Position numbers and translations under genes: made by a program. A stretch of 64,000 nt of DNA from positions 18,027,019-18,091,018 of the forward strand of contig CM055111.1 of NCBI GenBank assembly GCA_029204225.1, written 5' to 3'. The stretch is from Diphasiastrum complanatum. Its lineage: Eukaryota; Streptophyta; Lycopodiopsida; Lycopodiales; Lycopodiaceae. Positions 6,772-50,481 of the stretch are shown piece after piece (positions within the stretch are counted from its first letter, which is position 1; every line of letters starts with the position of its first letter). The notes under the pieces are model-generated. The model ran no database searches and was not told the DNA's origin. It was given only the letters and a program-made list of their open reading frames with translations.

Positions 6772-7042
6772 GTTAGAATAAAAGTAGAATCATTGTGTTA
6801 TTGTACCGTGGGTCCTATCAGTAGACCTTATCAATTGGCTTCGCCACGAGGCGATGGGACACGCGTCCTGTCACTGACAACCCGTCATGCATGGGTTGCC
6901 TGAGTGAAGAACTATATGTATAGTGTATTTTCAATTTGAGAAATACAGTTGGTACGTGAGCTTGGTGTGGAAAGTGTTTTCTGTCTGTGTTATTGTGTAG
7001 CATGATCTCTGTTCCTATTCGAAGCAAATTCTAAGTGAAACA
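6772..7042 (+). repeat. Copia family B 3' LTR, copy 1
   Basis: A purine tract (TTAAGGGAGAG) precedes an LTR-like segment that opens GTTAGAAT and ends GAAACA. It has a TATA-like ACTATATGTATAG about 130 bp in. The closely matching copy at 21,656-21,929 follows the same RNase H tail. No 5' LTR is present, so no target duplication can be tested. Confidence 0.7.
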
Positions 7043-7069
7043 TTATGTTAGAATGAGCCAGAGGCTTCC

Positions 7070-7384
7070 TTGGATCCTAATGACAACATTGCAATTGTAC
7101 CTAATCCAAGTCCACACATATCAAAACAACAAGTTGGTAATGGTCATAATCGAAACAAGATGAGACGAAAATCAAGTTTGTCCGATTTGTATGTCATTGA
7201 AAGTTTTGATAGTGATGCAACTGGGATGACATACAATATTATGATTTCAAATGGATTAATAGAAAACCATAAAAAACAAAAACAAAAATACACCATATGT
7301 AAGCAAATATATTATGTTTACTTGAGATTAAAAGGCTTCGATGTGAATGAAGAGATGTTTATTTACCAACCAATACTAAGTTAA
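7070..7384 (+). CDS. Unrecognised 104-codon ORF in block D
   Basis: An open frame beginning MDPNDNIAIVP with a basic patch (KMRRKS) and the segment SDLYVIESFDSD. I do not recognise a domain. The start could be artificial, because the frame opens soon after a Copia LTR and could be the remnant of a longer exon. The second copy (about 21,955-22,230) has a stop where this one reads an Asn-Arg-Asn segment and lacks part of the 3' region. It is therefore not conserved as a gene, and a decayed fragment is the more likely reading. Confidence 0.25.
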   Translation: MDPNDNIAIVPNPSPHISKQQVGNGHNRNKMRRKSSLSDLYVIESFDSDATGMTYNIMISNGLIENHKKQKQKYTICKQIYYVYLRLKGFDVNEEMFIYQPILS

Positions 7385-8460
7385 CAAGAGTTGTTCTATG
7401 TGATGTCAAGGTCTTGACATCTCAAGGTTGTTGGTTGTTAATCAAACGACTATGTCTGCTCCTCTTTTTGAATTCAAGCTTAATAAATAGAATTTCAAAC
7501 TTCATTGGGTTGTTTGAATGCGACTTAGAAATGTAGAATATGGTTACAAATGATGTTATATTTATGCTATTTCACATCTTTATAATATGCAACATTATCA
7601 ATACAAATATATATTTGTAAATGAGTGTACCTGTGCAATTCATTTTCAACAAACAAAATATCCAACAATTTGGAGATTGTTAAAATATGTGATTTAGCAA
7701 ATCATAAGCTCGCATAACTCGCACACATTTACTTGCAAAGTGTCAAGTCCCAAGCCCAAGTAAGTCTCTCTCTCCAAGGACACACACTTGCAACTGTAAC
7801 GCAAATTCTCCACAATTTTCTACCTATTATGAAATTAGAGTTTTGATTAACAAAGAGATTATTAAGTCCATATCGAAGGCAATTTTTTGAAATAACAATG
7901 TTCACAATATCACAACCTTTTTTGCACATACCCTTTCATACAAAAATTTGTGCAAATTGTCACTACAATTTTTTGAAATTTTAAAATAAACAAAATACTT
8001 CTCGCTTATTTGATAATAGGGAAGGGCCTTTCTTTATGCCTAGGCAGAAGAGCATTGCAAAACTCCTCTCCACCCCAAAAAAAATCCCCATACCATAACA
8101 ATATAAATACTGTAAAATAACCATGCTTGTACAAAACTTACTTGTAATAGAAAAGCATAAACGTAGCATAAGATCTGATGCTAAAAAGACGTATGCTTCA
8201 CAAAAAGACTCAATTAGTTGGCGCGGACACGTCTTGCTGGGAATGAAAGCAATGGATAACCTCTTGTGACATTTTCTCTCTTATTCTTGTGCATTATTCT
8301 TAATCTCGTTTTGTTAAAATTTTAAAGTTAGAGCTAAGTAGGGCTATGATTCGGCTCGGCACAATTCTGTACAGCGTGTAAACAAGTTTGATAGATTATA
8401 AATGGATTGAAGGAGAGAACTGCTCTTTGTTGAGATTCAACATCACTGCCTTACTCGGAA
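7385..8460. other. AT-rich non-coding part of block D
   Basis: Shared with 22,255-23,310. No supportable gene; short open stretches do not survive in the other copy with an intact start. Nothing structural is seen beyond AT-rich runs. Confidence 0.5.
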
Positions 8461-8672
8461 CTCCATACCGGCATTGTTGGACACCCATCATCATATTATT
8501 GTTTACGAATATGGCAGGCTCTTATAACTTTGGTTGTGCATAGAGGGGATTGACTACACAGAAGCAGATACAGAGTTCAGGTTAACCTGTGACAGAGTAG
8601 GAAATTGGATCTTAAAGCTAGTGGAAATGGAAAGAGAACTTGGAGACAATTTCTTGCCCTGCAAGACATCCT
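8461..8672 (+). pseudogene. Unrecognised exon-like fragment, copy 1
   Basis: Encodes a peptide resembling DTHHHIIVYEYG, then EGIDYTEAD and KLVEMERELGDNFL. It is open over 66 codons in the second copy (23,329-23,529) but broken here. It reads like an exon of a host gene carried in block D. I cannot name the family. Confidence 0.3.
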
Positions 8673-8779
8673 AACAACCTTCGAGCTTGTAGTCGAGCTT
8701 TTATTGGCATATTGTTGAGAAACTCATTTCGTCAGAAAGCTAACACCACTTCTAATTCTATCTATTTTATGTTGCTTTT

Positions 8780-9250
8780 ATTTTAAAGAGGCTTTGGCCC
8801 CTCGCATCTTGCAAGCACGGGCCGCATGTATGACGGCTTGGCCCCGGTGCCCTCCTGACCACACGTTTTTTGTTTTTTGTTTTTTGTTTTTTTTTAAAAT
8901 TGGCTGTCTGAACGCCACGTGTCCAGGTAGCCAATTTATATCCCATAAGCATTTCTACAAGGTAAGGGGAGGGAATATATACATAAGCCCACCTAATTGG
9001 TAGCATGTGTGTGTGTGTGCATGGGTGCCCGGCGCCACCCGCCCTGTCCGAGATCACAACTCGGCGCCGTGGGTGCCCGTGGCCTGGGGCTGCCTGTCGA
9101 AAATCTTCACGCTAGCCACACCTCAAATTTTGGTGGGCACCCCCATGCGGACACCCGTCAGCCGCTGGGGGGGGCACCGGCGCCAAACCCCTCCCACGCG
9201 CGGGGGTCGTGCACGTAAGTCCCAGTGGGTTAAAGCGGCCGGGATATCCA
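8780..9250. mobile_element. GC-rich MULE-like insert in block D, copy 1
   Basis: A sharply GC-rich island (GGGCCGC, CGGCGCC, GGGGGGCACC) in AT-rich surroundings, with a short (GT)n run at about 9,006. It shares the layout of the better-defined insert at 33,049-33,559: GC-rich core, a CACGTGTCC-type segment and A/T runs beside an arm. I could not define its terminal repeats or target duplication, so the element type is inferred from resemblance. Confidence 0.35.
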
Positions 9251-9593
9251 CCCACATGTGAGCAGGGAAGGTAATGGGAATGTACGTAACCAACCCAACC
9301 CAACCACCACACTCGGGGGCCTATTACTTCTATGTATTTAACTGAACTACGCAATATTTTGCGAATAGATTTTTGAGCACTCATTCGCCAATATCATAGA
9401 CACGCTCTTCAGTGCCCAGAAAAGATGGAGATCCAACATCTACTATCGGATTATGAACTCTGGTAAAGAGTTAGTAAATACGGATAGAGAATCTGTGTTC
9501 TTCTGAATCATGAATCATGAAATCTACGTCTTTAAGAAGCCTCTCGGTTTGAGCAGTATAGAACGGAGATTTTAGTTGAGATATCAACATGAC

Positions 9594-10238
9594 TCATGAA
9601 AGATGATCAGCACTGAGGGGGAGGGTCAATACCAGGACATTTTTCATCAAATAGCCATGATCCAGTCTGAAAAGATTCTGGCAAAAATTCAGGTGGCCAT
9701 TTTCTCTCTTCTGTATCTTAAGGCCCAGATCTGTTTGGTACAGTTGAGAGCGATTGGTAGGTTTTCGAGATGTCATTTTGTTGGTCCACATGGTTGCTAG
9801 TAGAACCATCGGTCCTCCCAAAAGTTCAAGACCATTTGCAGATTTGTGTCAGAGAAGTGTAGAGAAAACTACACCCCAGACTGGAATAGTCATGTAAATG
9901 AAAGTGGTGACGGATGCATTCACACCAAGCAGAGCTCGTATTTCCAACCAGCTGCATAGTCCATCACAGACGAGACCATTGTAGATCAATGGAAACCATG
10001 GTAAATGTTGAGCTAGTGTTGTGGAATCTAAGCCCCAATCACTAGAACTGGTGCATAGATTGCATATCTCCCAAAAAGCACTGAGGACAGTTAATACGGC
10101 TAACTGAACAACATTTAAACGCTTTGCATTCAATGCTTTACCAATTACGAGGACTTCTGCTCGAAATATTTGCAGAGCGAAAGTTAAAGAACTGGCGAAA
10201 ACCCATGGGTTTCCACCTTGAGCGCAATATATACACAA
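9594..10238 (-). pseudogene. EamA/DMT-type transporter fragment, copy 1
   Basis: Minus-strand frame with the segments WVFASSLTFALQIFRAEVL, LPWFPLIYNGLVC, LCSWLEIRAL and FIYMTIPVWG, and alternating hydrophobic helices. This order (helix, short polar loop, Trp-Leu-Glu-rich helix, then a Pro-Val-Trp-Gly helix) is typical of the second EamA repeat of plant drug/metabolite transporters. A stop follows VVFSTLL, and the frame resumes as a degraded tail (GGPMVLLATMW). There is no N-terminal half, so it is a captured gene fragment, not a working carrier. It appears three times in this window because block D was copied. Confidence 0.6.
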
Positions 10239-10249
10239 GGAACTTTTGA

Positions 10250-10472
10250 TTGTTCCTATATAGGAAAAAGAAAGAGTTTTCCTAGAATGAAATACACATA
10301 ACTAGGAACTGTGCATTCACTAGGAAAAATGAAACAGTTCCTAGATTGACAATATAGGTTTTCCTATATAGGAAATTTTTGACCAAGAATTTACTAGAAT
10401 AAGTATTTTCCTATATAGAAAATTTTTAACAGAAAAGAATTAGTTTTTTTATATAGATAAATAGCTTCCTTT
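10250..10472. repeat. Palindromic TTCCTATATAGGAA cluster, copy 1
   Basis: About 220 bp packed with TTCCTA and TAGGAA words, including TTTTCCTATATAGGAAA. It lies immediately upstream of the transporter fragment. Copies at 25,126-25,340 and 32,822-33,030 keep the cluster, the third directly beside a MULE-like insertion. It could be a MITE or a decayed intron. Confidence 0.6.
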
Positions 10473-11745
10473 GATCAGTTGCAATATAGTAGCCAACTCT
10501 ACTTGTCCCAAAGCATTAAATAAGTTAAATATGGTGTCAGCTGTTGTTTGGTGGGGATAATCATATGGACTTCTCTCTGGAAAAAAACACACTTAGGCAA
10601 CGCAAATTCCCAACTTAAACTATTAAAAAGCTCGCAGGCAAACCAGAACCGAGATGAGAATTCCCAACTAAAACAAAAATAAAGAAGAAGAAGGGCGAAG
10701 TTTAGAAGGAACAAACGATCTTGTATATAATGACCTAGAGAGTGAGAGTGACCTCAAAGCAAACGGTGGGCTAAAGCATCGCATCTCGAAATGGCACAAA
10801 TCACAGTCATGAGTTTATTCAAACAAAACTAAGAGATACAATCAATATTCCTTGCAGCAGCTTATAATGTAGAACTAAAGAAAGCCATTCATCAGTTGGT
10901 TAGACGCTATAAGTCTGAATTAAGCGCAACTACTGATGAGCAACCACAATAGCAATCTCTAATCAACTTTAGAATTAAGCGCAACTACTGATGACTAGAA
11001 CCACAATAGAAATCTCTAATCAACTCTAAAGAAATGAGCTAGAATACTCATGAGTGTCCAAGTCCGCAGGCTTGAGAGAGAACGCTAACTATTCAATACT
11101 TGATTCATTATAATGTAGAAATATGAGCAGCTATTTATACTAAGCAAATGCGGCAACGTCCAATAGTAGGACAACTAATTAGGTTGTAGATCATAATGGC
11201 TAGTGGGCCATAGTGAGTTGGCATCCATCTGGATCTTCCTGGAAATTTACTTAGTATAAAATTAGGGCAAGTCTATAGCTTTAAAACAAATTGAACAATA
11301 AATTGTCTTTCAACCGACCCGAAATTTGTCGTTGATTGCCAATCAAACGACACGAAATTTGTTGATGATGACACTAAATGTTGGAGCCACCTGTGATCCA
11401 TTTTTGAGTAATTATGTAGACTGTGTAAAAACATGAAGAAAGCTACAGGTCTGGATAAAAATTGGACGAAGATTAAGAAGTCGATTAGTAGGAGAATAAT
11501 CCAACACCCCATGCAACCTAGAATAGCAATTGCCCTCCTATTCTTGTATTATAGCAGTTAAACACCATGCAAGTGCTCCCATGTACAATTATAGGTCTGG
11601 GCCCACATATGATTATAAATTACTTTACTGGTCAAGCCTAGAATGACGAGGCATAACTAATAGCCACATGCACAGGAGTGACCGGCTATCCATGTCAGGA
11701 ATTATTCCGAATTCCTCATACTGGACATGGACGTAATAGTAATTG
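10473..11745. other. LTR-like tail of block D and inverted block R scrap
   Basis: Non-coding. Around 10,905-11,030 a segment of about 55 bp (TTAAGCGCAACTACTGATGA) occurs twice in tandem. A TATTTATACTAAGC motif near 11,133 is LTR-promoter-like. The stretch 11,560-11,745 is the reverse complement of 28,590-28,780 in block R, so parts of block R exist here in inverted orientation. Confidence 0.45.
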
Positions 11746-11785
11746 AGGTGGAGGAAGATTGGAGTCATTTGATTAGAACTTGACA

Positions 11786-12325
11786 GATGTTACCTAGGCT
11801 TGCAAATTGAAAGGGACTATGAGGGAGGTAAGTTATACCTTCACCAGTCCAGATACACCCAGAAGATCCTAGAGGACTTTGAGATGCTGAACTGCAAAGG
11901 AGCGAACACTCCAATGCTCGCAAGGACGGTGCTGACGAATGATGATTGTCCAAAGATTGAGGAACAGATGCATCTCACACCTTAGAGGAAGCTAATAGGA
12001 TCACTGATGTACCTTGCTAACAAAATACGTCCTGATATTGCTTATGTAGTATTCAGGATGATCCAATTCTGCACGAATCCAGGCTCGACACATTGGATGA
12101 TTGCAAAATGAATTTTGCAATATCTTCAATTAACGAGGGATTATGGCTTGTGTTATTGTCGTGGTGCATGCTTCAGGCTACTTTCCTATAGCGACGCTAG
12201 CTGGGCATCTCTCAAGGATGACTGTAAAAGCATCTCGGGAGGATGCACCATCGCATCAGGAGCAGCAGGTCTCTGAGTCAACAAGAAGCAAACCGTTGTA
12301 GCCCATCATCCTGTGAAGCAGAATA
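11786..12325 (+). pseudogene. Copia family A RT-RNase H scrap
   Basis: Starts inside RT (RCYLGLQIERDYEGG) and runs through the RT thumb (HQSRYTQKILEDF, LIGSLMYLA) into RNase H (YSDASWASLKDD). It is broken by several stops. It matches 2,560-3,120 in the first family A remnant. It ends at the RNase H motif ending in AEYVA, where it jumps to LTR sequence. Confidence 0.85.
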
Positions 12326-12640
12326 TGTTGCCAATGCACTGCATGGATTTGAATGCAGTGCTTGAAAAAGCAGGGGAAGTTCAATATAGATAATTTCTCT
12401 TGTTGTGTCTGATCTAGTATGCAAATGCTTCTGTTGTTAATCGTGTGTCTGAGTTTTTTTTTTTCTCGTTCATTTTAATTCCGCACCTTGGTTGAAACTA
12501 TGTTGAATGATGCATTAATTTTATAAACGTAGATCAGTAGAGCAGCTTGATTACATTCTGGAGGATTGTAGGAGTGATTCAGCTGGCAGTGTCCAGTGAT
12601 CGCATCTAAACTCCATCCGAGTCGCAAGAGGATTGTGGTT
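12326..12640 (+). repeat. Partial Copia family A LTR
   Basis: Matches 38,850-39,130, the 3' part of the family A 5' LTR (shared words TAAACGTAGATCAG and GTGATTCAGCTGGCAG). It is joined to RNase H sequence by a deletion across ATGCCAATGCACT-like text, which suggests a microhomology deletion. Confidence 0.75.
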
Positions 12641-12852
12641 CCTTCGTGGAAGCTTCGCGACTGCAAAACCCAAATCGCGATACACGAACCTGATTCCTCA
12701 TCAAGAACGTCGCACAAAAGATCGCGAGTTCTAACCTAAATATGAATTTACAAAGTGCATGTAGGGCTTTACATGAATTTAGGCACTATAACATATTTAC
12801 ATGTACAATATAAACAATAATTTTGGATAATGTGGGATCATGAGGCTCCACA
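12641..12852 (-). repeat. Truncated LTR of histone-bearing element H
   Basis: If Copia E1 is removed, this stretch becomes contiguous with 17,975 onward. Read on the minus strand, the H coding frame then runs into GAGGAAGGGGATA (purine tract) followed by TGTGGAGCC, a normal LTR opening, at 12,852. The left limit is uncertain; only about 200 bp of LTR remain before family A sequence. Confidence 0.5.
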
Positions 12853-12853
12853 T
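12849..12853 (+). repeat. Target-site duplication of E1, left
   Basis: CACAT directly precedes the E1 5' LTR and is repeated exactly at 17,970-17,974. The five-base length fits Copia integration. Confidence 0.9.
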
Positions 12854-13673
12854 TGTGAGAAATTGGCAAAAATCTAGCTTGGTATTTTTTATGATAGAAG
12901 TTTGTAAGTGAATCTCACATGTGTGGAGGATGTTCCCACATGTTGAGAATTGTAAAGTAAATCAAAATGTTTGATATAGGGGTCTCATAGAATTTCATAG
13001 TCAAGCATTTAGGTGTAGGATTTTGATAGGGTCAAATTTGGCATAGATGGCAAATTATCCATTTCCACTTGTAATGCCAATATTGAGCCAAAATAGAGCC
13101 AAACTTGTGCCAATTAGAGTGTAGACAAGTTTCATGCTTTTGTTTGATGAAGCTTAAGTGGTCCAATAGGATTCAGAGGTGGAACCTTGTGAGGTCCAAT
13201 AGAAAATTGAGGTGTGCTTGAATATAGTCCAATAGAATTTAGAGGTGCATGGATCAATGGTCCAATAAGATTAAGAGGTGGAAAAGTGTGATCCAATCAT
13301 AGTTAAGCATAGTGGTAGCTCATGAATCTATTAGTATCATTGTACTCCTCCTTTTGGATCTAATTGATTTTGAGATTGAGTGGATTTTGAGTGTCATTGA
13401 ATTTCTAGCTTTCTCTCTCTACCCGAGAGCTCATGATGCATTTTCTCCCTCTACCCGAGGAGAGCAGCTTGTTTTTACTTAGAATACTTTTGGAACACTT
13501 CCCACACGTGTGAGTGAGAGTTGGAAGTGATTGAATGCATGTAGTAGTGTGTTTTTGCCATAGAATCAAAGATAGATCTTGAATCTCAATCTAGTCTTGA
13601 TCTTGGTGCATCTACACACCTTAGGAGATCACAAGTACATGTAGTGGACAATCTACACGTGTGAAATTCAACA
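12854..13673 (+). repeat. Copia E1 5' LTR
   Basis: 820 bp from TGTGAGAAAT to TTCAACA. It is nearly identical to the 3' LTR (17,151-17,969) and to the inverted LTR at 31,572-32,391. It contains CTACCCGAGAGCTCATGATG and the related CTACCCGAGGAGAGC, and a CACACGTGTGAG motif. The low divergence between the two LTRs suggests recent insertion. Confidence 0.93.
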
Positions 13674-13685
13674 TGGTATCAGAGC
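13674..13685 (+). promoter_or_regulatory. E1 primer-binding site (initiator Met tRNA)
   Basis: TGGTATCAGAGC immediately follows the 5' LTR and is the standard plant Copia priming site complementary to the tRNA-iMet 3' end. The same site is seen inverted at 31,561-31,571 and at 39,168. Confidence 0.92.
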
Positions 13686-14430
13686 CTACCTAAGGTTACC
13701 ATGCATTTTGATCCATTTGAGTGAGAACTATTCATCAATCTTGAGCTAGAAATTGTCAAGGCCCATTTTCCTAGTTATCTTGTTCAATTTTGGATCAAAA
13801 GAGATCAAAAGGACATTGATTGGGTCTGACCTGGTACTGTACGGAATCAGGTGCTCAGACATGTGTGAGGAACATCCAATTTCAGTTTGGGATTTTTCTT
13901 TCATGTTTGATCCAAAAATCTTGCTAGATAGCTTGTTTTGAAGTTATTTTTGTCTAGTTTCTACTGCAATCAGTTTCATTCCATTTGGTTGAGCCAATCA
14001 AAAGTTATAAGCTTTTGAAGAGGGCTAGGTAGGGCACCTAGACCTGGGTGGACACATTTGGTTTGGTCAAAAGATTGCTTGTTTGATCCAAAATCACAGT
14101 TGAATGCTTACCAATCTCATCTATATGTGATCTAGGCATTGTTTTGAGATCTTAGCCATTTTGTTTCATGCAATATCATTGTATTTGAGTCAAATTTGGT
14201 TTCTTAGTGTATTTCACACGTGCTAAGAGTGTTTGATCCTAACTTTGCCCATACTCCATCATTTGATGTGAAGTAGATCTAGTTTTGGAGCGATTGAGAT
14301 AGCTAGTGAGAATCATCTCACAGTTTGTTGCAAGATCTTGCATAGGAGATGGTAGCACACCATTATTGGATCCTATAGTGAGAGAGAAGCAACATTTTTT
14401 GTTCATCACTTTTATTTATCTCCACTTTAC
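13686..14430 (+). other. E1 untranslated leader
   Basis: About 745 bp between the primer site and the gag start. No convincing gene. It is shared nearly unchanged with E2 (30,815-31,560, inverted), so it probably holds packaging or translation signals. Confidence 0.5.
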
Positions 14431-16767
14431 ATGACTTCAATGAGTTCATACTTGTTGCAACCAAGTGAGAGATTGTCTACTTCCAATTATTCAATATGGA
14501 AGTTGAGGATGGAGTCCATCTTGATACTCCAAGATGTGATGGACATTGTACTTGGGATTGAGGAGGATCCTCAAGTCCTTCAAGAAGTACAAAAATACAA
14601 GAAGAGAGCTAGGATGGCTCTCCACTACATTAAGATGGATGTCTCTAATGAGATATTGAGGGAGATTGGTGATTGTTCTACATCCAAGGAAGCTTGGGAT
14701 TGTCTCAAGTCCATCTATGAGGCTAAGAACACCTCTAGGCTCCTCACTCTTAGAAATCAAATATTTCAAAGTAGTAAAAAGAGTGATGAGAGTGCATCTA
14801 ATTATGTTTTGAGAGTCAGGGATATTCATAGGGAGCTTGCATGTATTGGTGACTCAATCAATCAAAGTGAGCTAGTCCAAGTCATTCTCAATGGCTTGAG
14901 AGATGAATATGACAACCTTGTCCAATCCTATGCTATTAAGGAGGAGCTACCAAGTTTGGAGGCCCTTCAAAGTGTGCTTATTTCTGAAGAATCAAGACAA
15001 GAGTACAAACTCTTGAGGATGGAAAAGCTATCACTCAATCATGATGATGGCAAAGTTCTATTTGCCAAGCACAAAGAGAGGAGTAAGAAGCAACACCATC
15101 ACTTCTCTAATGACAAAGCTAAAGACCAAGATGGAGAGGAGGAGGATACCTCTCATGCTTCTAATTCAAATCTCAAGAAGAAGATGATCAAGTGCTTTTA
15201 TTGTGGCAAGAAAGGCCATTATGCCACCAATTGCTTCAAGAAGAAGAATCAACTCAATCAAGCCAACATCACCAATGAGAAAGAAGACTATATTGCAAGT
15301 GATGGAGAAGGCTCTCTTATGGCATCAAGCTTCTCCTCTTCCACCTTCAACAAGGATGACTCATGGTATATTGATAGTGGAGCATCTTCACATATGTGTG
15401 GCTCCAAGCACTTTTTTTCATCTATTATGCCTTATGATGGAGTCAAGAAGACCATATACTTTGCAAGTAAGCATGAGTGCAATATTGAAGGAGTAGGGAT
15501 TATTCCCTTGAAGCTTGCATCTTCTAAAGATCTCTTTCTCAACAATGTTCTTTTTGTCCCAAAGCTTATAAAGAACATCTTAAGTGTTGGCCAACTTCTT
15601 GATAGTGGCTTTGATGTCAATTTCAATATTGACAATTGTGTGATTAAGAAGGATGGTGAGATTCTTGCATATGGATCAAGATTTGAAGGCATCTACAAAT
15701 TGGATCCAAGTGAGAGTGCAAACTCTCTTGATGTTTCTTATATTTCCAAAATTTCAAAGGAGGAGGATGACACAAGATGCACATATCTTCTCTCTTCAAG
15801 TATTATGGTGTATGATTATTCCTTATTAGTCAAAGCATATGTTGAGAAGAAATTCTCATTGAAGATCAAAGCTTTGAGGAGTATCGGAGCTCTTGAAGGA
15901 ATAGCACCATATGAAGTTTTATTCAAGATGAAGCCTAAGGTTGATCACCTTAGTGAACTTGGTAGTGCTTGCTTTGCACATATTCCCTTGGAAACAAGAA
16001 GGAAGGATGATCCAAGCTCATGGATCATGATTGGATACTCATCCATCAAGGAGGCCTTTACTGTCTTTACACTCTCTATTTCAAATGTGATCGTGAATAG
16101 AGATGTCATATTGCATGAAGATTCAATCTTGGAAGTGGCCGAGATCAAGGCTTCTCAAGAAGCATCACAAGTTATCCTTTTTGAAGGTATTCAAGTTATG
16201 ATGGGGCCAATGTGTGAGGAGGAGTTTCTTCTTCATATGATTTCAAGAAGATCTTCAAGATGCATGGCCGAGTATTTATGGCTCACCTTACATGGCAAAG
16301 AGGGGCATCTTTCATGTTGTATCTACTACAACACATTCATATATGCTTCTCTTCCTTTGCTTGAAATGCTATCTTGCTTCATTGAATTTTTTGGATCTCA
16401 AAGTTCAAGAAAAGCTATACTAGTTTTGTATGATGCTTATGGTATGGACATGTTTCTTGTCATTATTGACTTAGCTGTGTTTCCAATACTTTTTGAAAGC
16501 AAGATATTGTATTGTCAAAAGTATGCTCTTGGTTCTAGTAAGAACAAGATTGAGCTTGGTACTCACTTTTTTGAAAATCATGTTTTCACATGTTTTGAGG
16601 CAAATTGTAAACTCCTCTTGAGATTAAGTGAAGCATCCAAAGTGGACACTTACATCCTTGAGAGAGTAACTAGCCTAAAAAAGATCAAGATAGTCTTTGA
16701 TATCAAGATTAGATCCATCATGGATATAGTTACTCTCAAGACTAGTCCATCATTATATGTGGACTAG
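14431..16767 (+). CDS. E1 gag-protease polyprotein without RT or integrase core
   Basis: A single open frame of 778 codons. The N-terminal 200 residues are a Copia-type gag (UBN2-like; WKLRMESILI, AWDCLKSIYEA, LNGLRDEYDNLVQSY). A zinc knuckle CFYCGKKGHYATNC lies near residue 255, and the protease motif WYIDSGASSHM near 312. GAG-pre-integrase follows (LFVPKLIKNILSVGQLLDSG). The frame then jumps from about residue 480 straight to the integrase C-terminal region (YEVLFKMKPKVDHL, then SIKEAFTVF, VNRDVI). The catalytic DDE core is absent. The last 200 residues show no RT or RNase H motifs. The deletion is shared with E2, so it defines the family. It likely forms particles and depends on enzymes from another Copia element. 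Confidence 0.88.
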   Translation: MTSMSSYLLQPSERLSTSNYSIWKLRMESILILQDVMDIVLGIEEDPQVLQEVQKYKKRARMALHYIKMDVSNEILREIGDCSTSKEAWDCLKSIYEAKNTSRLLTLRNQIFQSSKKSDESASNYVLRVRDIHRELACIGDSINQSELVQVILNGLRDEYDNLVQSYAIKEELPSLEALQSVLISEESRQEYKLLRMEKLSLNHDDGKVLFAKHKERSKKQHHHFSNDKAKDQDGEEEDTSHASNSNLKKKMIKCFYCGKKGHYATNCFKKKNQLNQANITNEKEDYIASDGEGSLMASSFSSSTFNKDDSWYIDSGASSHMCGSKHFFSSIMPYDGVKKTIYFASKHECNIEGVGIIPLKLASSKDLFLNNVLFVPKLIKNILSVGQLLDSGFDVNFNIDNCVIKKDGEILAYGSRFEGIYKLDPSESANSLDVSYISKISKEEDDTRCTYLLSSSIMVYDYSLLVKAYVEKKFSLKIKALRSIGALEGIAPYEVLFKMKPKVDHLSELGSACFAHIPLETRRKDDPSSWIMIGYSSIKEAFTVFTLSISNVIVNRDVILHEDSILEVAEIKASQEASQVILFEGIQVMMGPMCEEEFLLHMISRRSSRCMAEYLWLTLHGKEGHLSCCIYYNTFIYASLPLLEMLSCFIEFFGSQSSRKAILVLYDAYGMDMFLVIIDLAVFPILFESKILYCQKYALGSSKNKIELGTHFFENHVFTCFEANCKLLLRLSEASKVDTYILERVTSLKKIKIVFDIKIRSIMDIVTLKTSPSLYVD

Positions 16768-17134
16768 TCGAGCTAGAAAGCATAAGCTTGATAATCATCA
16801 TTGTTTCACATCTTATGATCTTGATCTCCATGATCCTTATGAGGCTTGGAAGCCTCATATTTCTCTATTTATGGTGCATCCATCATGCAAGTGGAACTTT
16901 CAAGGCAAAGATCATCATCAAGCATGGAGGAAGCCCATGATAATAGTGGCATATTGGTGGAGCACTCTTCAAAGGCATTGGCAAGAGATCTCTACCAAAG
17001 AGATCTTATCATGGATATGGTGAGGGTGCTGCTATGATGGATCCCTTGGCTGATCTTCACTTCTTATGCATACCAAAGGATCCACTCAAAAATATTTACA
17101 AACTTCTCAAGTGATCTAGTACCTTTCCAAGCTA
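16768..17134 (+). other. E1 non-coding 3' region
   Basis: Between the stop codon and the purine tract. Short frames encode scraps reminiscent of a degraded pol C-terminus (a DPLADLH-like segment near 17,040), consistent with a deletion of RT and RNase H. Confidence 0.4.
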
Positions 17135-17150
17135 TTTTTTTGAGGAGGAG
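17135..17150 (+). promoter_or_regulatory. E1 polypurine tract
   Basis: TTTTTTTGAGGAGGAG abuts the TGTGAG opening of the 3' LTR, the expected plus-strand priming site. Confidence 0.85.
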
Positions 17151-17969
17151 TGTGAGAAATTGGCAAAAATTTAGCTTGGTATTTTTATGATAGAAGTTTG
17201 CAAGTGAATCTCACATGTGTGGAGGATGTTCCCACGTGTGGATAATTGTAAAGTAAATCAAAATGTTTGATATAGGGGTCTCATAGAATTTCATAGTCAA
17301 GCATTTAGGTGTAGGATGTTGATAGGGTCAAATTTGGCATAGATGGCAAATTATCCATTTCCACTTGTAATGCCAATATTGAGCCAAAATGGAGCCAAAC
17401 TTGTGCCAATTAGAGTGTAGACAAGTGTCATGCTTTTGTTTGATGAAGCTTAAGTGGTCCAATAGGATTTAGAGGTGGAACCTTGTGAGGTCCAATAGAA
17501 AATTGAGGTGTGCTTGAATATAGTCCAATAGAATCTAGAGGTGCATGGATCAATGGTCCAATAGGATTAAAAGGTGGCAAAGTGTGATCCAATCATAGTT
17601 AGGCATAGTGGTAGCTCATGAATCTATTAGTATCATTGTACTCCTCCTTTTGGATCTAATTGATTTTGAGATTGAGTGCATTTTGAGTGTCATTGAATTT
17701 CTAGCTTTCTCTCTCTACCCGAGAGCTCATGATGTATTTTCTCTCTCTACCCGAGGAGAGCAGCTTGTGTTTCCTTAGAATACTTTTGGAACACTTCCCA
17801 CACGTGTGAGTGAGAGTTGGAAGTGATTGAATGCATGTAGTAGTGTGTTTTTGCCATAGAATCAAAGATAGATCTTGAATCTCAATCTAGTCTTGATCTT
17901 GGTGCATCTACACACCTTAGGAGATCACAAGTACATGTAGTGGACAATCCACACGTGAAAAATTCAACA
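17151..17969 (+). repeat. Copia E1 3' LTR
   Basis: 819 bp from TGTGAGAAAT to TTCAACA, followed by the CACAT duplication at 17,970-17,974. It differs from the 5' LTR by only scattered single bases and tiny indels. Confidence 0.93.
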
Positions 17970-17984
17970 CACATATCCCCTTCC

Positions 17985-19802
17985 TCAGCAGTGTAGTGGC
18001 TCGCAAACAAATTGCTTACAATCTTCTTTGTTACTTCCTACTGGTTGGCTTTCTATGGAAAATAGCTTTTGCTCGGGCTTCATTTCATTCATTGACTTGC
18101 CTTTTGTAGCAAGGTAGTAATTGTTCTTCTGGTTGTAATCTTCCTGAAATGATAAATTCAAATAACCTCCCATTCCTTGATTTTCCAATGGTGCAAGGGG
18201 GTTGTCGATCAATGTGTTATTTTCAAGATGAGTGTACCAACTATCCCCAGACAAGATTTCAGACATCTCAGCAGAAGGGACAATTAGTGAGAGGGCTGCA
18301 TATGTATATTTTGGGAATTTTTCTTTAATGTATAATTGTTGAATGGACAAAAGGGCATATGAAATGAGAGAACCAATATTTACATAATTGTAAGTATAGT
18401 ATGGTTTGGTTATTGGGTTAGTAAAGCGAAGTATATCATCTGCTTTAACTTCCTCCAAATAATGAGAATAATTAGCTTCCCAATCTGTGTAGATTTCCCA
18501 CAGATCAAGGAATAATAGCTGACTAGAGACCTTGGAAGGAGTTGGATCAGGTCTAGGAACTACTCAATTAACATCAAAAATGTTAATTGGGTCTAGCTTA
18601 TTCCGATACTCATCCAAAGCTGGAAAAATATTGTTTTCAAATGTTTTTAGATATTCTAGGATATATATATGCAAAGATCCTATAACAACGTGGATATAGT
18701 TAGTTTGCACATTGAGCTTATTCTGAACAATGGCAAGAGCAAAGATACATTTTTGGTGCACTGTTAGTTTGGCCCAAAAAGTGTTTAGGCTAGAAAAAAT
18801 CCAAGGGCTTTCCCATTGTTCTTTTGTATAACCAAAAAGTTTTGGTAAAAGAAGGTAATCCATTCTCCATTGGAGTTCTGGACTATTAAAAGGTAGAAGA
18901 AAAAATGTTAGTTCTTGTTGGAATGTCTGAAATTCTGTCTTTAGTAGTGAATACACTACCTTGTTCTTCCTCTCGACAGCTCCACTGTGTGATGCTTCAG
19001 CCTGCTACAAAATAATTGGTAGAGTTGCTGGTTGGTCTAAAGAAGCTATGTCACTGGTTGCTTTTGGCTTCACAGCATCCTCAGGGTCAGTCTGCACGTC
19101 TTGATCTTTCTGGATTTGCTTAAAAACAATATCTATCTAGATGGCCTTCTCTGATGTATCTTTAACTAGCTCATCCATCTGCATAGACTAGTCTTGGCGC
19201 TGGACATGTTCTTTATCTTCAAAATTCTGGATTTGGCTTGATTGAAACTTAGCCTCTTCCAGTTCTTCTTTCAATTTCTCATATGAAACCATCTAGGGTT
19301 GCAAATATTGCAGTTGGAAGGTCTGGATAATTTTTTCTTGAATACCTTACAAGTTGTTGGGTCGATCCTGTATCTCCCATGAGATACACAAGCTCCCAAT
19401 GTGACTTCGGCACTTATCCGCCATAGAATTGTCTCTTTGGCTTGTTTCTTATAGATTTGGTTGCCTTTCCTTAGTAGAGTCTGTAGAATTCTACAGCTAG
19501 GCAACAGAGTCCTGAAGCTGCTTTGATTTGCTTGGGCACTCTCCTTGTTGGTAATGGCATTGCTAAGTTTGTCGCTCAGCTCCTCGTTACTACTCTGCAA
19601 AGTAGCTCGTGCAACATCTGACTCAGAGCTCAAGAAGACACGGGTCTCTTGGCCGAGATATGTCCAGGAGGAAGGGAGATAGCTGGCCTTCGAGATCCAG
19701 CCTTCTTGGGGACAGCTTGCTTCTCTTCCTCCTAGAGGTAGTAGGCATGTTGGTTCTATCAAGAGGTAGGTCTCTAGAGGTGCTGGCATTATCAACATGC
19801 AG
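17985..19802 (-). pseudogene. Element H: linker, coiled coil and novel helical domain
   Basis: Downstream continuation of the H3-like frame. First a basic linker (SRRKRSKLSPRR, a likely nuclear signal), then a coiled-coil segment (SSNEELSDKLSNAI; YEKLKEELEEAKFQ), then a helical module with PELQWRMDYLLLPKLFG, an Ile-Gly-Ser-x-x-Ile-Tyr segment and LWEIYTDWEANYSHYLEE. It ends just before a purine tract. Damage: a frameshift near 19,625, another at an A-run near 19,330, in-frame TAG at 19,188-19,190, 19,137-19,139 and 19,005-19,007, and TGA at 18,564-18,566. The stops lie in one common frame, showing that it was one long ORF. A homologue at 54,209-55,560 shares the key motifs. I do not recognise the helical module. 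Confidence 0.75.
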
Positions 19803-20177
19803 ACCAAAATATCTGTCCCGAAGCCTTTTGAGAATTAAGAAATCCTTTGGCATGATGGTGACACGCTTACCATGCACTGCCAAAAGACAAGTATCCTCAA
19901 AAAACTAGGACAGAAAATCATCTGCAGCACCCTGCAAGGCATGCATGGCTGTCACGGCAAAACAAATATCTAGGCCAAGTGACAGAGTGACATTCCATAC
20001 AGATTGGCCGAAAGGAGCCCTAGGGATCAACAATTCAGTTGATCTCTGGAGTTTTCTGATCTCCCTCAGCCAGACCTGCTTCCTGCCACGCCTACAGCCA
20101 GTATCAGGGGGAACACGAGAATGGGATGGCTGTATAGTAGTGATGGCGCGGGCGGTGGATTTGGTCATGACCATCAT
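19803..20177 (-). pseudogene. Histone H3-like domain opening the element H polyprotein
   Basis: From Met at 20,168 (other in-frame ATGs at 20,174 and 20,177), 122 codons read as a histone H3. The tail is TKSTAR (H3: TKQTAR). The alpha-N and alpha-1 region is LREIRKLQRSTELLIPRAPF (H3: [20 protein letters not shown]). Alpha-2 carries ALQGAADDFLS, alpha-3 FFEDTCLLAVHGKRVTIMPKD. Loop 1 has the canonical H3 length, not the longer CENH3 form, although LLIPRAPF resembles CENH3. One in-frame TAG lies at codon 88 (19,905-19,907). The tail is short (about 30 residues before alpha-N) and lacks most acetylated lysines. The same frame continues past the histone end without a stop into a basic linker, so it is a fusion, not a free histone gene. 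The histone identity is very strong; function in the element is unknown. Confidence 0.88.
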
Positions 20178-20483
20178 TCTTTGAAGAAGAAAATTAACAG
20201 AAAGAAGTTTGAACAAAACAAAAGTGGATCAAAACAAAAAACTTTGCGATGAAAGGGCGCTTGAGATCGATACCAGCACTGAATATCGGTTTCGAGCACA
20301 AGATCTATAGAGATTGTTTGTAGAAAAGAGATGCGCGCTCGAAAGCGATATTGCACAGCAGGCGGTATCGGACTCGAGCGCACTGTGAGAGGACGGAAGC
20401 TTGAATTATGAAAGAGCGCACTTGAGAGCGATATCGAGAGCTAAAAGCGAAAATTTTGCGAAAAAAAATGAAAATTCCGAGGA

Positions 20484-20492
20484 CTTATATAG
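20484..20492 (-). promoter_or_regulatory. TATA box upstream of the H3-like ORF
   Basis: On the minus strand this reads CTATATAAG, about 310 bases before the H3-like ATG. The G-box-rich repeats lie just upstream of it, giving a plausible promoter order. No transcript evidence is available. Confidence 0.45.
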
Positions 20493-20499
20493 ACGAAAT

Positions 20500-20745
20500 T
20501 TTTGCACATGTAAAAAGACGGCCGAGACATGTGTCATCAGATGATTAGACCACGTGGAATGTCTGTACTAACAATGATGAGCCAAGTATGAGGCCACGTG
20601 GGCTGAGACACGTGTGCGAATACCTAATCGACACGTGTCATTCACGCACGTGACAGATGTTAGATCAATCATACTACGACACATTTATTTTGGCTAATCA
20701 CAAGTTGATACGTGTTCCTTCGCCAGTCCTCCACACGTGCAATTT
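20500..20745. repeat. G-box-rich repeat, unit 1
   Basis: About 245 bp with many CACGTG/ACGTG cores (GACCACGTGG, CCACGTGGGCTGAGACACGTG, CGACACGTGTCATTC). It recurs as a diverged direct repeat at 21,115-21,360, about 611 bp away. CACGTG is the classic plant bZIP/bHLH target. Confidence 0.75.
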
Positions 20746-21114
20746 TTTTTTATAAATATGTCTTTTTTGGGCTCATATTTTCACGCAAATTCATGATTGC
20801 ATTGCCAGATATCAATTTCAAACGCACCGCTTGCTCTCATTACATCTTGTTGGCTAATATGCGCTTGGATCCGATACTACAACGTCCAGTTTCGCTTTGG
20901 AGCGCGTCTTGCAACCCTTTTCTTTTCTGCTCGTTTTCCTTGCGCTCGGATCCGATACTCCAACTTCAAATATCTCTCTCGAGCGCACGTTGATTTGATG
21001 TGCTTGTCGGACCTAGGGTTTGCGCCTGAGAGCGATATTTGGAACTTCAGTTCTGTTATTTTTGTTTAAAATGCTAATTTTGAATCTAGTTTGCTTTCTT
21101 TTTTTAATGGATTT

Positions 21115-21360
21115 TTGCAAATTTTTGCACGTGTGAAAAGACGTCCGAGACACGTGTCGTCAGATGACTAAACCACGTGGAAATTCCATACTGATAATGA
21201 TGACCCAATTATGGGGACACGTGGGCTGAGACACGTGCGCGAATCCCTTATCGACGCGTGTCATTCTCGGACGTGACAAATGTCAGATCAATCATTCATA
21301 GTATGACGCATTTATTTTGGCCAATCACATGTCGACACGTGTTGCTTTGCCGGATATCGA
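21115..21360. repeat. G-box-rich repeat, unit 2
   Basis: Diverged copy of unit 1, with the same order of words (CACGTGTCGTCAG, ACCACGTGG, ACACGTGGGCTGAGACACGTG, ACACGTGTTGC). Just beyond it, near 21,376, the sequence switches to block D copy 2. Confidence 0.75.
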
Positions 21361-21655
21361 TTTCAAGCACGCCGCTTCAGTCAGAGTGGCATTCAGCTAG
21401 CAAAGAATCTAGTGTTCCATACGAGAACCAAACACATTAAGATTTAGTATCACTTTATACGCGTGAGGCTGTTGAGTCGTGAAATTCATGTTATTCATTG
21501 TAGTATGAACGAACAACTAGCTGATATTTTCACTAAGCCAGTTGTTAGAAAAAAGTTTGATAAGTTTAAATCATAGCTTTATGTACTTAAAGTTTGTTGA
21601 CTTTAAAACTATGTATATGACTGTATAGAAAGTAGACTCTACTTTAAGAGAGAGA

Positions 21656-21929
21656 GTTAGAATTAAAGTAGAATCACCGTGTTACTGTACTGTGGGTCCT
21701 ATCAGTAGATAAGGATCAGTTCGCTTCGCCACGAGGCGATGGGACACGCGTCCTGTCAACGGCAACCTGGGTCATGCATGGGTTGCATGAGTGAAGGACT
21801 ATATGTATAGTGTATTTTCATTTTGAGAAATACAGTTGCTACGTGAGCTTGGTATGGAGAGTGTTTTCTGTCTGTGTTATTGTGTAGCATGATCTCTGTT
21901 CCTATTCAAAGCAAATTCTAAGTAAAACA
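21656..21929 (+). repeat. Copia family B 3' LTR, copy 2
   Basis: Close match to 6,772-7,042, preceded by the same RNase H tail (21,380-21,610) and a purine tract (TTTAAGAGAGAG). It sits inside block D copy 2. Confidence 0.7.
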
Positions 21930-23639
21930 TTATGTTAGACTGAGCCAGAGGCTTCCTTGGATCCTAATGACAACATTGCAATTGTACCTAATCCAAGTCC
22001 ACACATATCAAAACAACAAGTTGGTAATGGTCGTAATTGAAACAAGATGAGACGAAAATCAAGTTTGTCCGATTTGTATGTCATTGAAAGTTTTGATAGT
22101 GATGCAACTGGGATGACATACAATATTATGATTTCAAATGGATTAACAGAAAATCATCAAAAACAAAAACAAAAATACACCAAATGTAAGCAAATATATT
22201 ATGTTTACCTTCAATGTGAATGAAGAGATGTTTATTTACCAACCAATACTAAGTTAACAAGAGTTGTTCTATGTGATGTCAAGGTCTTGACATCTTAAGG
22301 TTGTTGGTTGTTAATCAAATGACTATGTCTGCTCCTCTTTTTGAATTCAAGCTTAACAAATAGAATTTCAAACTTCATTGGGTTGTTTGAATGCAACTTA
22401 GAAATGTAGAATATGGTTACAAATGATGTTATATTTATGCTATTTCACATCTTTATAATTTGCAACATTATCAAAACAAATATATATTTGTAAGTGAGTC
22501 TAACTGTGCAATTCATTTTCAACAAACAAAATATCCAACAATTTGGAGATTGTTAAAATATGTGATTTAGCAAATCATAAGCTCGCATAACTCGCACACA
22601 TTTACTTGCAAAGTGTCAAGTCCCAAGCCCAAGGAAGTCTCTCTCTCCAAGGACACACACTTGCAACTGTAACGCAAATTCTCCACAATTTTCTACCTAT
22701 TATGAAATTAGAGTTTTGATTAACAAAGAGATTATTAAGTCCATATCGAAGGCAATTTTTTGAAATAACAATGTTCACAATATCACAACCTTTTTTGCAC
22801 ATACCCTTTCATACAAAAATTTGTGCAAATTGTCACTACAATTTTTTGAAATTTTAAAATAAACAAAATACTTCTCGCTTATTTGACAATAGGGAAGGGC
22901 CTTTCTTTATGCCTAGGCGGAAGAGCATAACAATATAAATCCCCATACCATAACAATATAAATACTTTAAAATAACCATGCTTGTAAAAAACTAACTTGT
23001 AATAGAAAAGCATAAACGTAGCATACGATCTGATGCTAAAAAGGCGTATGCTTCACAAAAAGACTCAATTAGTTTGCGCGAACACGTCTTGCTGGGAATG
23101 AAAGCAATGGATAACCTCTTGTGACATTTTCTCTCTTATTCTCGTGCATTATTCTTAATCTCGTTTTGTTAAAATCTTAAAGTTAGAGCTAAGTAGGGCT
23201 ATGATTCGGCTCGGCACAATTCTGTACAGCGTGTAAACAAGTTTGATAGATTATAAATGGATTGAAGGAGAGAACTGCTCTTTGTTGAGATTCAACATCA
23301 CTGCCTTACTCGGAACTCCATACCGGCATTGTTGGACACCCATCATCATATTATTGTTTACGAATATGGCAGGCTCTTATTACTTCGGTTGTCCCTAGAG
23401 GGGATTGACTACACAGAAGCAGATAAAGAGTTCAGGTTAACCTGTGACAGAATAGGAAATTGGATCTTAAAGCTAGTGGAAATGGAAAGAGAACTTGGAG
23501 ACAATTTCCTGCTCTGCAAGACATCCTAACAACCTTCGAGCTTGTAGTCGAGCTTTTATTGGCATATTGCTGAGAAAGTCATTTTGTCAGAAAGCTAACA
23601 CCGCTTCTAATTCTATCTATTTTATGCTACTTTTATTTT

Positions 23640-24110
23640 AAAGAGGCTTTGGCCCCTCGCATCTTGTGAGCACGGGCCGCACGTATGACGGTTTGGCCCC
23701 GGTGCCCTCCTGACCACACGTTTTCTTTTTTTTTAAAACTGCCTGCCTGAACGCCACGTGTCCAAGTAACCAGTTTATATCCCATAAGCATTTCTACAAG
23801 GAAAGGGGAGGGAATATATACAGAAACCCACCTAATCGCTAGCATGTGTGTGTGTGTGTGTGCATGGGTGCCCGGCGCCACCCGCCCTGCCCAACGCCAC
23901 TGCCCGGCGCCACCTGCAGGCTGCCCGACACCACCCGTCCTGTCCGAGACTGCGGCTCGGCGTCAAAAACCCTCACGCCAGCCACATCTCAAATTTTGGC
24001 GGGGACCCCCTTGTGGACACCCGTCAGCTGCTGGGGGGCACCGGGGCCAAACCCCTCCCACGCGCGGGCCATGCTCGTAAGTCCTAGCGGGTTAAAGCGG
24101 CCCAGATATC
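23640..24110. mobile_element. GC-rich MULE-like insert in block D, copy 2
   Basis: Counterpart of 8,780-9,250, with a (TG)n run near 23,846 and extra internal GGCGCCACC-type units not present in copy 1. Ends are undefined. Confidence 0.35.
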
Positions 24111-24562
24111 CACCCACACACATGTGAGCAGGGAAGGTACTGGGAATGTACGTAACCAACCAACCTATTGCTTCTATGTATTTCATATTATCTATATAAC
24201 TGAACTACGCAATATTTCGCGAACAAATTTTTTAGCACTCATTCGCCAATATCATAGACATGCTCTTCAGTGCCCAGAAAAGATGGAGATCCAACATCTA
24301 CTGCCGGATTATGAACTCTGGTATGGTATTGTGGAGGTTTGAAAGAGTTAGTAAGTACAAATAGACAATCCGTGTTCTTTTGAATCATGAATCATGAAAT
24401 CTACGTCTTTAACAAGCCTCTCGGTTTGAGCAGTATAGAACGGAGATTTTAGTTGAGATATCAACATGACTCATGGAAGATGATCAGCACTGAGGAGGGT
24501 AGATACCATGACATTTTTCATCAAATAGCCATGATCCGGTCTGGAAAGATTATGGCGAAAAT

Positions 24563-25106
24563 TCAGGTGGCCATTTTCTGTCTTCTGTATCTTAGGCCTA
24601 GATCTGTTTGGTACAGTTGAGAGCGATTGGTAGGTTTTCGAGATGTCATTTTATTGGTCCACATAGTTGCTAGCAGAACCATCGGTCCTCCCAAAAGTTC
24701 AAGACCGTTTGCAGATTTGTGTCGGAGAAGTGTAGAGAAAACTGCACCCCAGACTGGAATAGTCATGCAAATGAAAGTGGTGACGGATACATTCACACCG
24801 TGCAGAGCTCGTATTTCCAACCAGCTGCATAGTCCACCACAGACGAGACCATTGTAGATCAATAAAAACCATGGTAAAGGTTGAGCTAACGTTGTGGAAT
24901 CTAAGCCCCAATCACTAGAACTGGTGCGTAGATTGCATATCTCCCAAAAAGCGCTGAGAACAGTTAATACGGCTAACTGAACGACATTTAAACGCTTTGC
25001 ATTCAATGCTTTACCAATTTTGAGGACTTCTGCTCAAAATATTTGCAGAGCGGAAGTTAAAGAACTGGCGAAAACCCATGGGTTTCCACCTTCAGCGCGA
25101 TATATA
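24563..25106 (-). pseudogene. EamA/DMT-type transporter fragment, copy 2
   Basis: Same fragment as at 9,594-10,238. Here the second part is open without the stop after VVFSTLL, so the frame runs through HKSANGLELLGGPMVLLATM, giving 147 codons from the Met at 25,006. Upstream coding (WVFASSLTSALQIF) is interrupted by a stop. The different damage in each copy shows independent decay after duplication. Confidence 0.6.
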
Positions 25107-25125
25107 CACAAGGAACTTTTGATCG

Positions 25126-25340
25126 TTCCTATATAGGGAAAAAAAAGAGTTTTCCTAGAATGAAATACACATAACTAGGAACTGTGCATTCACTAGGAAA
25201 AATAAAACAGTTCCTAGATTGACAATATAGGAAAACTTTTCCTATATAGGAAAATTTTGACCAAGAATTTCCTAGAATAAGTATTTTCCTATATAGAAAA
25301 TTTTTAACAGAAAAGAATTAGTTTTCCTATATAGATAAAT
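25126..25340. repeat. Palindromic TTCCTATATAGGAA cluster, copy 2
   Basis: Best-preserved copy: it contains AACTTTTCCTATATAGGAAA and about a dozen TTCCTA or TAGGAA words in about 215 bp. Confidence 0.6.
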
Positions 25341-26603
25341 AGCTTCCTTTGTTCAGTTGCAATATAGTAGCCAACTCTACTTGTCCCAAAGCATTAAATA
25401 CGTTAAATATGGTGTCAGCTGTTGTTTGGTGGGGATAATCATATGGACTTCTCTCTGAAAACAAACACACCCAACGCAAATTCCCAACTTAAACTATTAA
25501 AAAGCTCGCAGGCAAACCAGAACCGAGATGAGAATTCCCAACTAAAACAAAGATAAAGAAGAAGAAGGGCAAAGTTTAGAAGGAACAAACGATCTTGTAT
25601 ATAATGACGTAGACAGTGAGAGTGACCTCAAAGCAAACGGTGGGCTGAAGCATCACATCTCGAAATGGCACAAATCATAGTCATGAGTTTATTCAAACAA
25701 AACTAAGAGATACAGTCAATATTCCTTGCAGCAGCTTATAAGGTAGAACTGAAGAAAGCCATTCATCAGTCGGTTAGACGCTATAAGTCTGAATTAAGCG
25801 CAACTACTGAGCAGCTATTTATACTAAGCAAATGTGGCAACGTCCGATTGTAGGACAACTAATCAGGTCGTAGATCATAATGGCTAGTGGGCCATAGTGA
25901 CTAAATATAAGTCTGAACTAAGCGCAACTACTGATGACTATAACCACAATAGAAATCTCTAATCAACTCTAAAGAAATGAGCTAGAATACTCAAGAGTGT
26001 CCAAGCCCACAGGCTTGAGAGAGAACACTAACTATTCAATACTTGATTCATTATAATGTAGAAATATGAGCAGCTATTTATACTAAGCAAATGCAGCAAC
26101 ATCCAATAGTAGGACAACTAATTAGGTCGTAGATCATAATGGCTAGTGGGCCGTAGTGAGTTGGCATCCATCTGGATCTTCCTGGAAATTTACTTGCTAT
26201 AAAAATAGGGCAAGTCTGTAGTTTTAAAACAAATTGAACAATAAATTGTCTTTCAACTGACACGAAATTTGTCGTTGACTGCCAATCAAACGACACGAAA
26301 TTTGTTGATGATGACACTAATAGTTGGAGCCACCTGTGATCCATTTTTGAGTAATTATGTAGACTGTGTAAAAACATGAAGAAAGCTACAGGTCTGGATA
26401 AAAATTGGACGAAGATTAAGAAGTCGATTAGTAGGAGAATAATCCAACACCTCATGCAACCTGGAATATCAGTTGCCCTCCTATTCTTGCATTATAGCAG
26501 TCAAACACCATGCAAGTGCTCCCATGTACAATTATAGGTCTGGGCCCACATATGATTATAAACTACTTTACTGGTCAAGCTCGGAATGACGAGGCATAAC
26601 TAA

Positions 26604-46972: not shown

Positions 46973-47580
46973 TTTCACTAATGAACGATTAAATTTTATC
47001 TGCAATTTTTTTGACAAGAATGTTAATGATATTGACAAAATACACTTGTTAACATATACAGTTAAAATTGATATGTACACACAAATTTAACAAGATCCAC
47101 GAATATCTTTATCACTAAAACATTTAGATACCTTACCAATGTCAAGTTGCTTGAACGAATATGACATTGTCTAATTCATGAAGAAAAGAAACAGATTCAA
47201 GCAAACTATGAAATAGAATTGTGATTTCTTTTAACTATTTAAAAAACTAAGCAGTAATTAATACATATTTGTCATTTTTATAAAATCATCAAAATCTTCA
47301 AAATCTCGAGTTTGGAAAAATCAAGTAGCTTGAATTTGATACTTACATGTGAAACAACTCTATTTTGGTCCCTATCGCTTGACATAGCCCATTGAATAAT
47401 CATCAAAGTTCAAATTTGATGCCTAACGTGTGGTTTTGATGTTGATCACTCGACATGGCTAATGAAGGAATTAGACTCAACTAATTTCAAATCTGCTGTA
47501 AATGAGATCTAATGACTTAGAAGATCTAGTAGAAGAGTTAGCAAATGGTTGCTTTTGAGCCTTTGAGAGTAGCCTCCTTT
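46973..47580. other. TNP2 upstream region, left arm
   Basis: AT-rich sequence upstream of the TNP2 start, mirrored at about 60,560-61,164. No gene seen. It is the likely promoter region of TNP2. Confidence 0.35.
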
Positions 47581-50420: not shown

Positions 50421-50481
50421 ACTGCCACGAGTGGCAAAAAAATGCGTGGCAGAGCCACGCGACACTTGAAATCTGGAAAAT

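Follow-up and report, generated by a model that had tools for sequence, protein, structure and literature searches.

A divergent histone H3 gene as a probable component of a family of large DNA transposons in Diphasiastrum complanatum, with a dead copy fused to a Ty3 retrotransposon

Divergent histone H3 genes are carried by mobile DNA in many copies in the genome of Diphasiastrum complanatum. We consider it likely (roughly 80%) that such a gene is a standing component of a family of large DNA transposons, and that the H3 sequence in the window (the whole 64,000-nucleotide stretch of contig CM055111.1 analyzed here) is a dead piece of one such element fused to a Ty3 retrotransposon. The window would then hold a dead 1.8-kb transposon piece, comprising the 5′ half of the H3 gene and the non-coding region upstream of it, which abuts the 3′ end of a Ty3 retrotransposon at 19613/19614; segmental duplication on one chromosome would have multiplied the resulting chimera. 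The elements themselves would encode a transposase with a predicted RAG1/Transib-like fold, a gene that we call X, and the H3-variant gene (two of them at locus L034). The features of the window are as follows.

11784–12853, minus strand: 3′ end (LTR region) of the Ty3 element, resuming past the copia insertion
12854–17969, plus strand: nested copia retrotransposon (LTRs at 12854–13673 and 17150–17969, target duplication CACAT, gag/pol ORF at 14356–16767)
17970–17984, minus strand: purine-rich tract (..GAGGAAGGGGA..), end of the Ty3 internal part
17985–18563, minus strand: second half of the helical domain of the Ty3 3′ ORF (3,247 first-look candidates in the genome, of which the best 150 were scored)
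18564–19004, minus strand: first half of the helical domain of the Ty3 3′ ORF
19005–19613, minus strand: coiled-coil part of the Ty3 3′ ORF, broken
19613/19614, no strand: junction at which the histone-transposon piece meets the Ty3 3′ ORF (the match of H3-less copies ends about here)
19614–19802, minus strand: C-terminal linker belonging to the H3 gene of the next row, running to the junction and frameshifted relative to the downstream ORF
19803–20168, minus strand: dead copy of a B2-type transposon H3 gene, comprising its tail and histone-fold core (Pfam, phmmer; 82% identical to the core of copy L061)
19905–19907, minus strand: TAG in frame inside the H3 core, common to 6/6 copies read on contig C20
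20169–21377, minus strand: non-coding B2 transposon region upstream of H3 (between H3 and gene X in L061)

The initial annotation had reported H3 core motifs, a TKSTAR tail and a basic linker on the minus strand, and we found all of these there. Profile searches agree: two pieces of the H3 sequence matched Pfam Histone, one above the curated cut-off (E = 9.5e-9) and one slightly below (E = 7.2e-5, 23.5 bits), and phmmer against PDB matched H3.1 (E = 1.2e-20, residues 31–118 of the piece, with X placed at the stop), which, judged by sequence, far exceeds chance. The core is genuine H3 sequence, but its frame is not open, as the TAG at 19907–19905 splits it between ‘FLS’ and ‘FFEDT’. H3 does stand directly in front of the coiled-coil/helical ORF into which it had been read across a frameshift, and the two are in different frames in 6/6 copies read. 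The B2 copy L061, which has transposase, gene X and an open H3 ORF, can be aligned with the whole stretch from 19614 to 21377, and the window core is 82% identical to that copy and 51% to host H3. A host H3 pseudogene that landed beside an LTR is not supported by these identities, nor by the non-coding region upstream, which derives from the transposon too. That region contains an internally repeated segment (20496–20724 and 21119–21351, 84% identical). Rfam gave no match at gathering scores anywhere in the window.

On the other side of the junction, the match to the window ends no later than about 19613 in copies that lack H3, and runs across the junction in copies that have it. Four helical-domain copies on other chromosomes were read with their flanks (L056–L059), none of which had H3 in front of the helical ORF. 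Three (L057, L058 and L059) have a different N-terminal domain upstream (starting MAIVFK..PKPVL), and two (L058 and L059) have a Ty3 integrase upstream. These flanks identify the coiled-coil/helical sequence as a Ty3 retrotransposon 3′ ORF. Pfam gave no match at or above the curated cut-off for the pieces of this ORF. The window’s coiled-coil/helical neighbor is thus the 3′ end of such an element, but the normal N-terminal domain of that ORF is not H3, which comes from another element. The end of the ORF had been placed at a purine tract and the start of an LTR; the tract is present at 17970–17984, but the LTR edge belongs to the nested copia element at 12854–17969, past which the Ty3 element’s own sequence resumes from 12853 downwards. 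Elsewhere in the window, 44115–52618 and 55554–64000 form a near-perfect inverted repeat (pieces 96–99% complementary, arms of more than 8 kb, reaching the window end), and between its arms lies another relative of the helical domain of Ty3 (54452–55024, 33–38% identity).

When the 150 best window-type H3 places were compared with the best 150 helical places, the two domains adjoined in seven pairs, 1,507–1,696 bases apart and in every case within the 18.0–20.0 Mb interval of C20. The TAG in the core and the frame mismatch between H3 and coiled coil are common to all six copies read from these seven pairs. The nested copia of the window is also present in L042 and L043, and L048 has a host flank in common with the window (6836–7953, with its duplicate at 21723–22826), so the C20 pairs are best explained as segmental duplications of one broken chimera. 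A further seven window-type H3 places on C20 (at least 89% identity) lie more than 10 kb from any listed helical domain. The order of H3 followed by the helical domain therefore does recur in the genome, at 7/150 of the best H3 places, but only on C20 and, in every copy read, with the same lesions, so the proposal of an LTR polyprotein that starts with H3 does not hold. The idea that the Ty3 element regularly includes H3 was likewise rejected, given the copies on other chromosomes, the position of the junction and the confinement of the pairs to C20; the window’s ‘H3 polyprotein’ is a local accident, a one-off wreck. It is very improbable that the chimera was once a working H3–coiled-coil–helical protein of the Ty3 element. 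In L042–L045 and L048 the coiled-coil frame stays open through the linker immediately upstream of the junction, and this linker is similar to that of intact B2 H3 proteins, which means that the join itself could be in frame; however, an in-frame join has a one-in-three chance, the sequence upstream of H3 is transposon and copia rather than Ty3 integrase, and the shared core stop, the shared frame mismatch and the restriction to C20 all argue against it. The window also contains a tandem duplicate (6836–11216 and 21723–26000, about 14.87 kb apart and mostly 91–97% identical) that carries a piece of an EamA-type transporter gene (24563–25033, minus strand).

A Pfam Histone search of the genome gave 6,325 first-look candidates, which are not confirmed copies; about 150 were scored and 30 loci returned. 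Ordinary host H3 accounts for 13 of these (L001–L013), and the remaining loci are divergent. Type A has a long RS/polyQ/polyP N-terminal region with the core at the C-terminus, and A′ is a relative of A; types B1 and B2 have the core near the N-terminus and a long C-terminal extension, and the window belongs to B2. The open B2 gene at L061 encodes 372 residues from Met to stop, and the B1 locus L028 matches Pfam Histone with E = 6.2e-29. With a B1 H3 protein as the query (8,196 candidates), most of the best 144 copies match from about residue 16 to 266, indicating conservation of the extension in addition to the core. Core identity among lineages A, B1 and B2 is 44–59%. A tree of H3 sequences, which the initial annotation had suggested building, recovers an A+A′ clade (85/82) and a B1+B2 clade (86/79), both apart from host H3, with the window type in the latter; at deeper levels the tree gives no firm branching order. 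Values of dN/dS were 0.33 (A, 55 pairs), 0.21 (B1, 3 pairs) and 0.53 (B2, 3 pairs), all of them rough because the sets are small and dead copies are mixed in. Among the matches listed, H3 copies are spread over most large contigs and many hold stops. Short open stretches that are alike in B1 and B2 lie past the H3 stop (L061:5641–5986, L062:5623–5979 and L032:539–706; for example, ‘FTLE.YTPDDVYRF’ and ‘FTLPEYTSSQVYRF’), perhaps further H3 exons or a fourth gene. Host H3 exons of ordinary sequence were also seen in L063 and L064, with the reading frame broken upstream as by an intron.

These H3 genes have recurrent neighbors. Gene X is convergent to H3 in 13/13 A/A′ loci (L014–L022, L025, L026, L029 and L030) and divergent from it in 3/4 B1 loci, the exception being L024, where the transposase is directly upstream. 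Transposase, X and H3 were found together for type A on two chromosomes (L036 and L037/L038), for B1 (L031) and for B2 (L061), and at L034 an A′-type and a B-type H3 lie within 3 kb of each other with X between them. The element was pieced together from stretches of several copies, and for B1 the two end repeats, transposase, X and an open H3 were seen across more than one copy. A third type A place with wide flanks (L039/L040) has X, no transposase and retroelement ORFs, and the B2 copies L060 and L062, which are broken up by retroelement ORFs, have neither X nor transposase in view. Using the transposase piece of L024 as the query (9,335 candidates, best 150 used), at least 15 transposase places have one of the best 144 B1 H3 copies 3,955–4,501 bases downstream on the same strand, with none in each of the shifted controls (0.1, 0.3, 1 and 3 Mb); one further pair within 20 kb has another orientation. 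This is a lower bound, as only the best copies were counted, and some contigs may duplicate others. The 3 kb downstream of the B2 H3 were matched at full or nearly full length by 27 of the 40 places among the matches listed, and at least 10 of those 40 have one of the best 150 H3 places within 5 kb. Transposases of lineages A, B1 and B2 are about 41–52% identical over the pieces compared. For gene X, no Pfam family, including PHD and kelch, matched the pieces (rather than the whole gene) at the curated cut-off. A 212-residue open frame lies upstream of a type A H3 gene (L038:2068–2703, minus strand).

One end of the element could be placed, for B1. In a DNA search with L032:1–6000, 28 of 78 matches end at 1896–1901 (25 of these at 1896–1897), and none besides the query’s own place crosses this point. 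Ten other copies agree with L032 to the end base and then diverge into nine different flanks, those of L066 and L067 being alike. Read inwards, this end is CATTAGAGGAGTTCTCAATATC.., which has 1,017 forward and 1,054 reverse matches with at most two mismatches, and none for its reversed control. Among the first 100 matches, all on contig C1, a perfect repeat in the right orientation lies 2.5–3.0 kb downstream of three of the seven listed B1 H3 copies on C1 and 7.2 kb upstream of another one, and four of the seven listed C1 transposases lie 1.92–1.98 kb (start to start) from a right-oriented repeat. One repeat pair on C1, 9.45 kb apart, encloses a transposase and has TCA on both sides; equal 3-base flanks were seen in this pair alone (1/4) and not in the other three, and no 5-bp target duplication was seen in the four pairs. 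For B2, six C1 places were compared with 37 of the first 100 repeat places, and the B1 end repeat was found in the right orientation at 0/6; one lay within 15 kb in the wrong orientation. Terminal inverted repeats of the CA..TG type were thus found for B1, the one lineage with a placed end. The B1 ends begin CATTAGAG, and CAC..-type heptamer ends with a 5-bp target duplication were not found there.

The transposase is predicted to be CMCT-like. At L037, two D residues and CxxC are in one ORF, and HxxxxH and E are in a second; the same motifs are present in the relatives P0010 and P0061. Modeled on P0010, a metagenome relative rather than the protein of this genome, the structure is predicted to have a RAG1/Transib-like catalytic fold, with RAG-like (ProtoRAG) and Transib proteins as its best structural matches. 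According to PMC12730594, the CMCT clade comprises EnSpm/CACTA, Mirage, Chapaev, Transib, Plavaka, ESTA and Lanisha together with RAG1. Target duplications in this clade are 2–5 bp long. The histone element shares with these transposons the DDE triad with C(2)C and H(3-4)H between the second D and E, the predicted RAG1-like fold and, in B1, the CA..TG ends (PMC12730594), and it differs in carrying H3 and gene X and in its relatives, 22 of which matched no Pfam family at or under E 0.037 and no PHD. Compared with RAG-like elements (ProtoRAG; PMC7204232) and Transib, the likeness lies in the structural matches and in a second gene beside the transposase, and the differences are the B1 ends, which are not CACTW.., the four repeat pairs without 5-bp duplication, the presence of an H3 gene and the lack of a kelch or PHD match in the gene X pieces. 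In total, 79 transposase relatives were found, mostly metagenome proteins and one from the fern Ceratopteris. The pattern of alignment A1 matched 7 times in viral contigs and 12 times in a bacterial/archaeal collection, none of them confirmed.

What the element H3 might do is suggested by its tail. At position 9, 17/17 transposon tails found by pattern have D, G, E or A (A: L014, L015, L017, L019–L022, L025 and L026; A′: L018; B1: L023, L024, L027 and L028; B2: L060–L062; repeats of one place and linker matches left out) and 13/13 host H3 have K, so these transposon H3 tails are not of the canonical kind with K9. As the pattern itself requires R2 and K4, the presence of K4 in these 17 tails is no test; tails outside the pattern, read by eye, also have K4 and lack K9 (L016, the B-type H3 of L034 and the window), and L029 and L030 have no readable H3 tail. 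The element could make its own H3, able to pair with H4 and to bear the K4 mark; with no K9 to methylate, nucleosomes containing it would resist H3K9-based silencing, and its long extension, N-terminal in A and C-terminal in B, may tether it to the element DNA or to the transposase. We offer this escape from H3K9 silencing as a tentative possibility. The stronger form, in which the element marks itself with its own H3 (a K4 docking tail without K9) as both a shield against H3K9 methylation and a chromatin signal for the transposase, is more doubtful.

Plant DNA transposons are well known to capture host genes, and the stops in many H3 copies would fit a captured passenger that is carried along and of no use to the element. 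We consider this rather unlikely, as H3 is found beside transposase and X in A, B1 and B2 despite H3 core identities of 44–59% and transposase identities of about 41–52% over the pieces compared, dN/dS is below 1, and most of the best 144 copies keep the extension conserved along with the core. The H3 variant could instead be CENH3-like and direct insertion to the centromere or to K4-marked open chromatin rather than counter silencing. The A, B1 and B2 cores have ‘LI(P/S)xAPF’ where host H3 has ‘LIRKLPF’, and plant CENH3 is alike at this site; ARTKQTAR is also kept in the tails of many A copies. PHD fingers of the RAG2-like type bind H3 tails methylated at K4 (PMC7204232), which would also suit a targeting histone. 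Nevertheless, we regard this as unlikely: most of the large contigs have copies among the matches listed, no Pfam PHD was found in the gene X pieces or the 22 transposase relatives, and the grouping of the B clade with Arabidopsis CENH3 is weak (83/71). The A, A′ and B cores share the histone fold and 43–53% core identity with an Arabidopsis CENH3, but differ from plant CENH3 and other H3 variants in being repeated mobile DNA with long extensions and K9 replaced.

Mobile elements that carry silencing-undoing proteins are known. Plant VANDAL transposons encode VANC anti-silencing proteins (PMC10398659), and fungal transposons carry TET/JBP genes (PMC12730594). The histone element would resemble both in being a DNA transposon whose cargo gene acts on chromatin or methylation, but its cargo is a core histone rather than a DNA-binding protein or an enzyme. 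Judged by title and start of abstract, searches of the open-access literature listed no transposon-borne histone, no RAG1-like plant transposon and no clubmoss H3 transposon. An intact B2 H3 protein query found 33 proteins, each matching 14–48% of it and therefore none a whole-length relative; the metagenome proteins P0113 (H3 core with a long C-terminal extension) and P0114–P0116 (a long insert between an ARTKQT tail and the H3 core) could, from their sequences, be histone fusions of mobile DNA in other organisms. If the proposal is true, a core histone with its silencing lysine replaced and carried on a transposon would be a new form of escape from chromatin control; it would also serve as a natural experiment showing which residues of the H3 tail are important. 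A plant RAG1-like transposase would then stand beside the H3 tail that RAG2-like readers bind in animals, and these elements hint that mobile DNA can bring its own chromatin protein.
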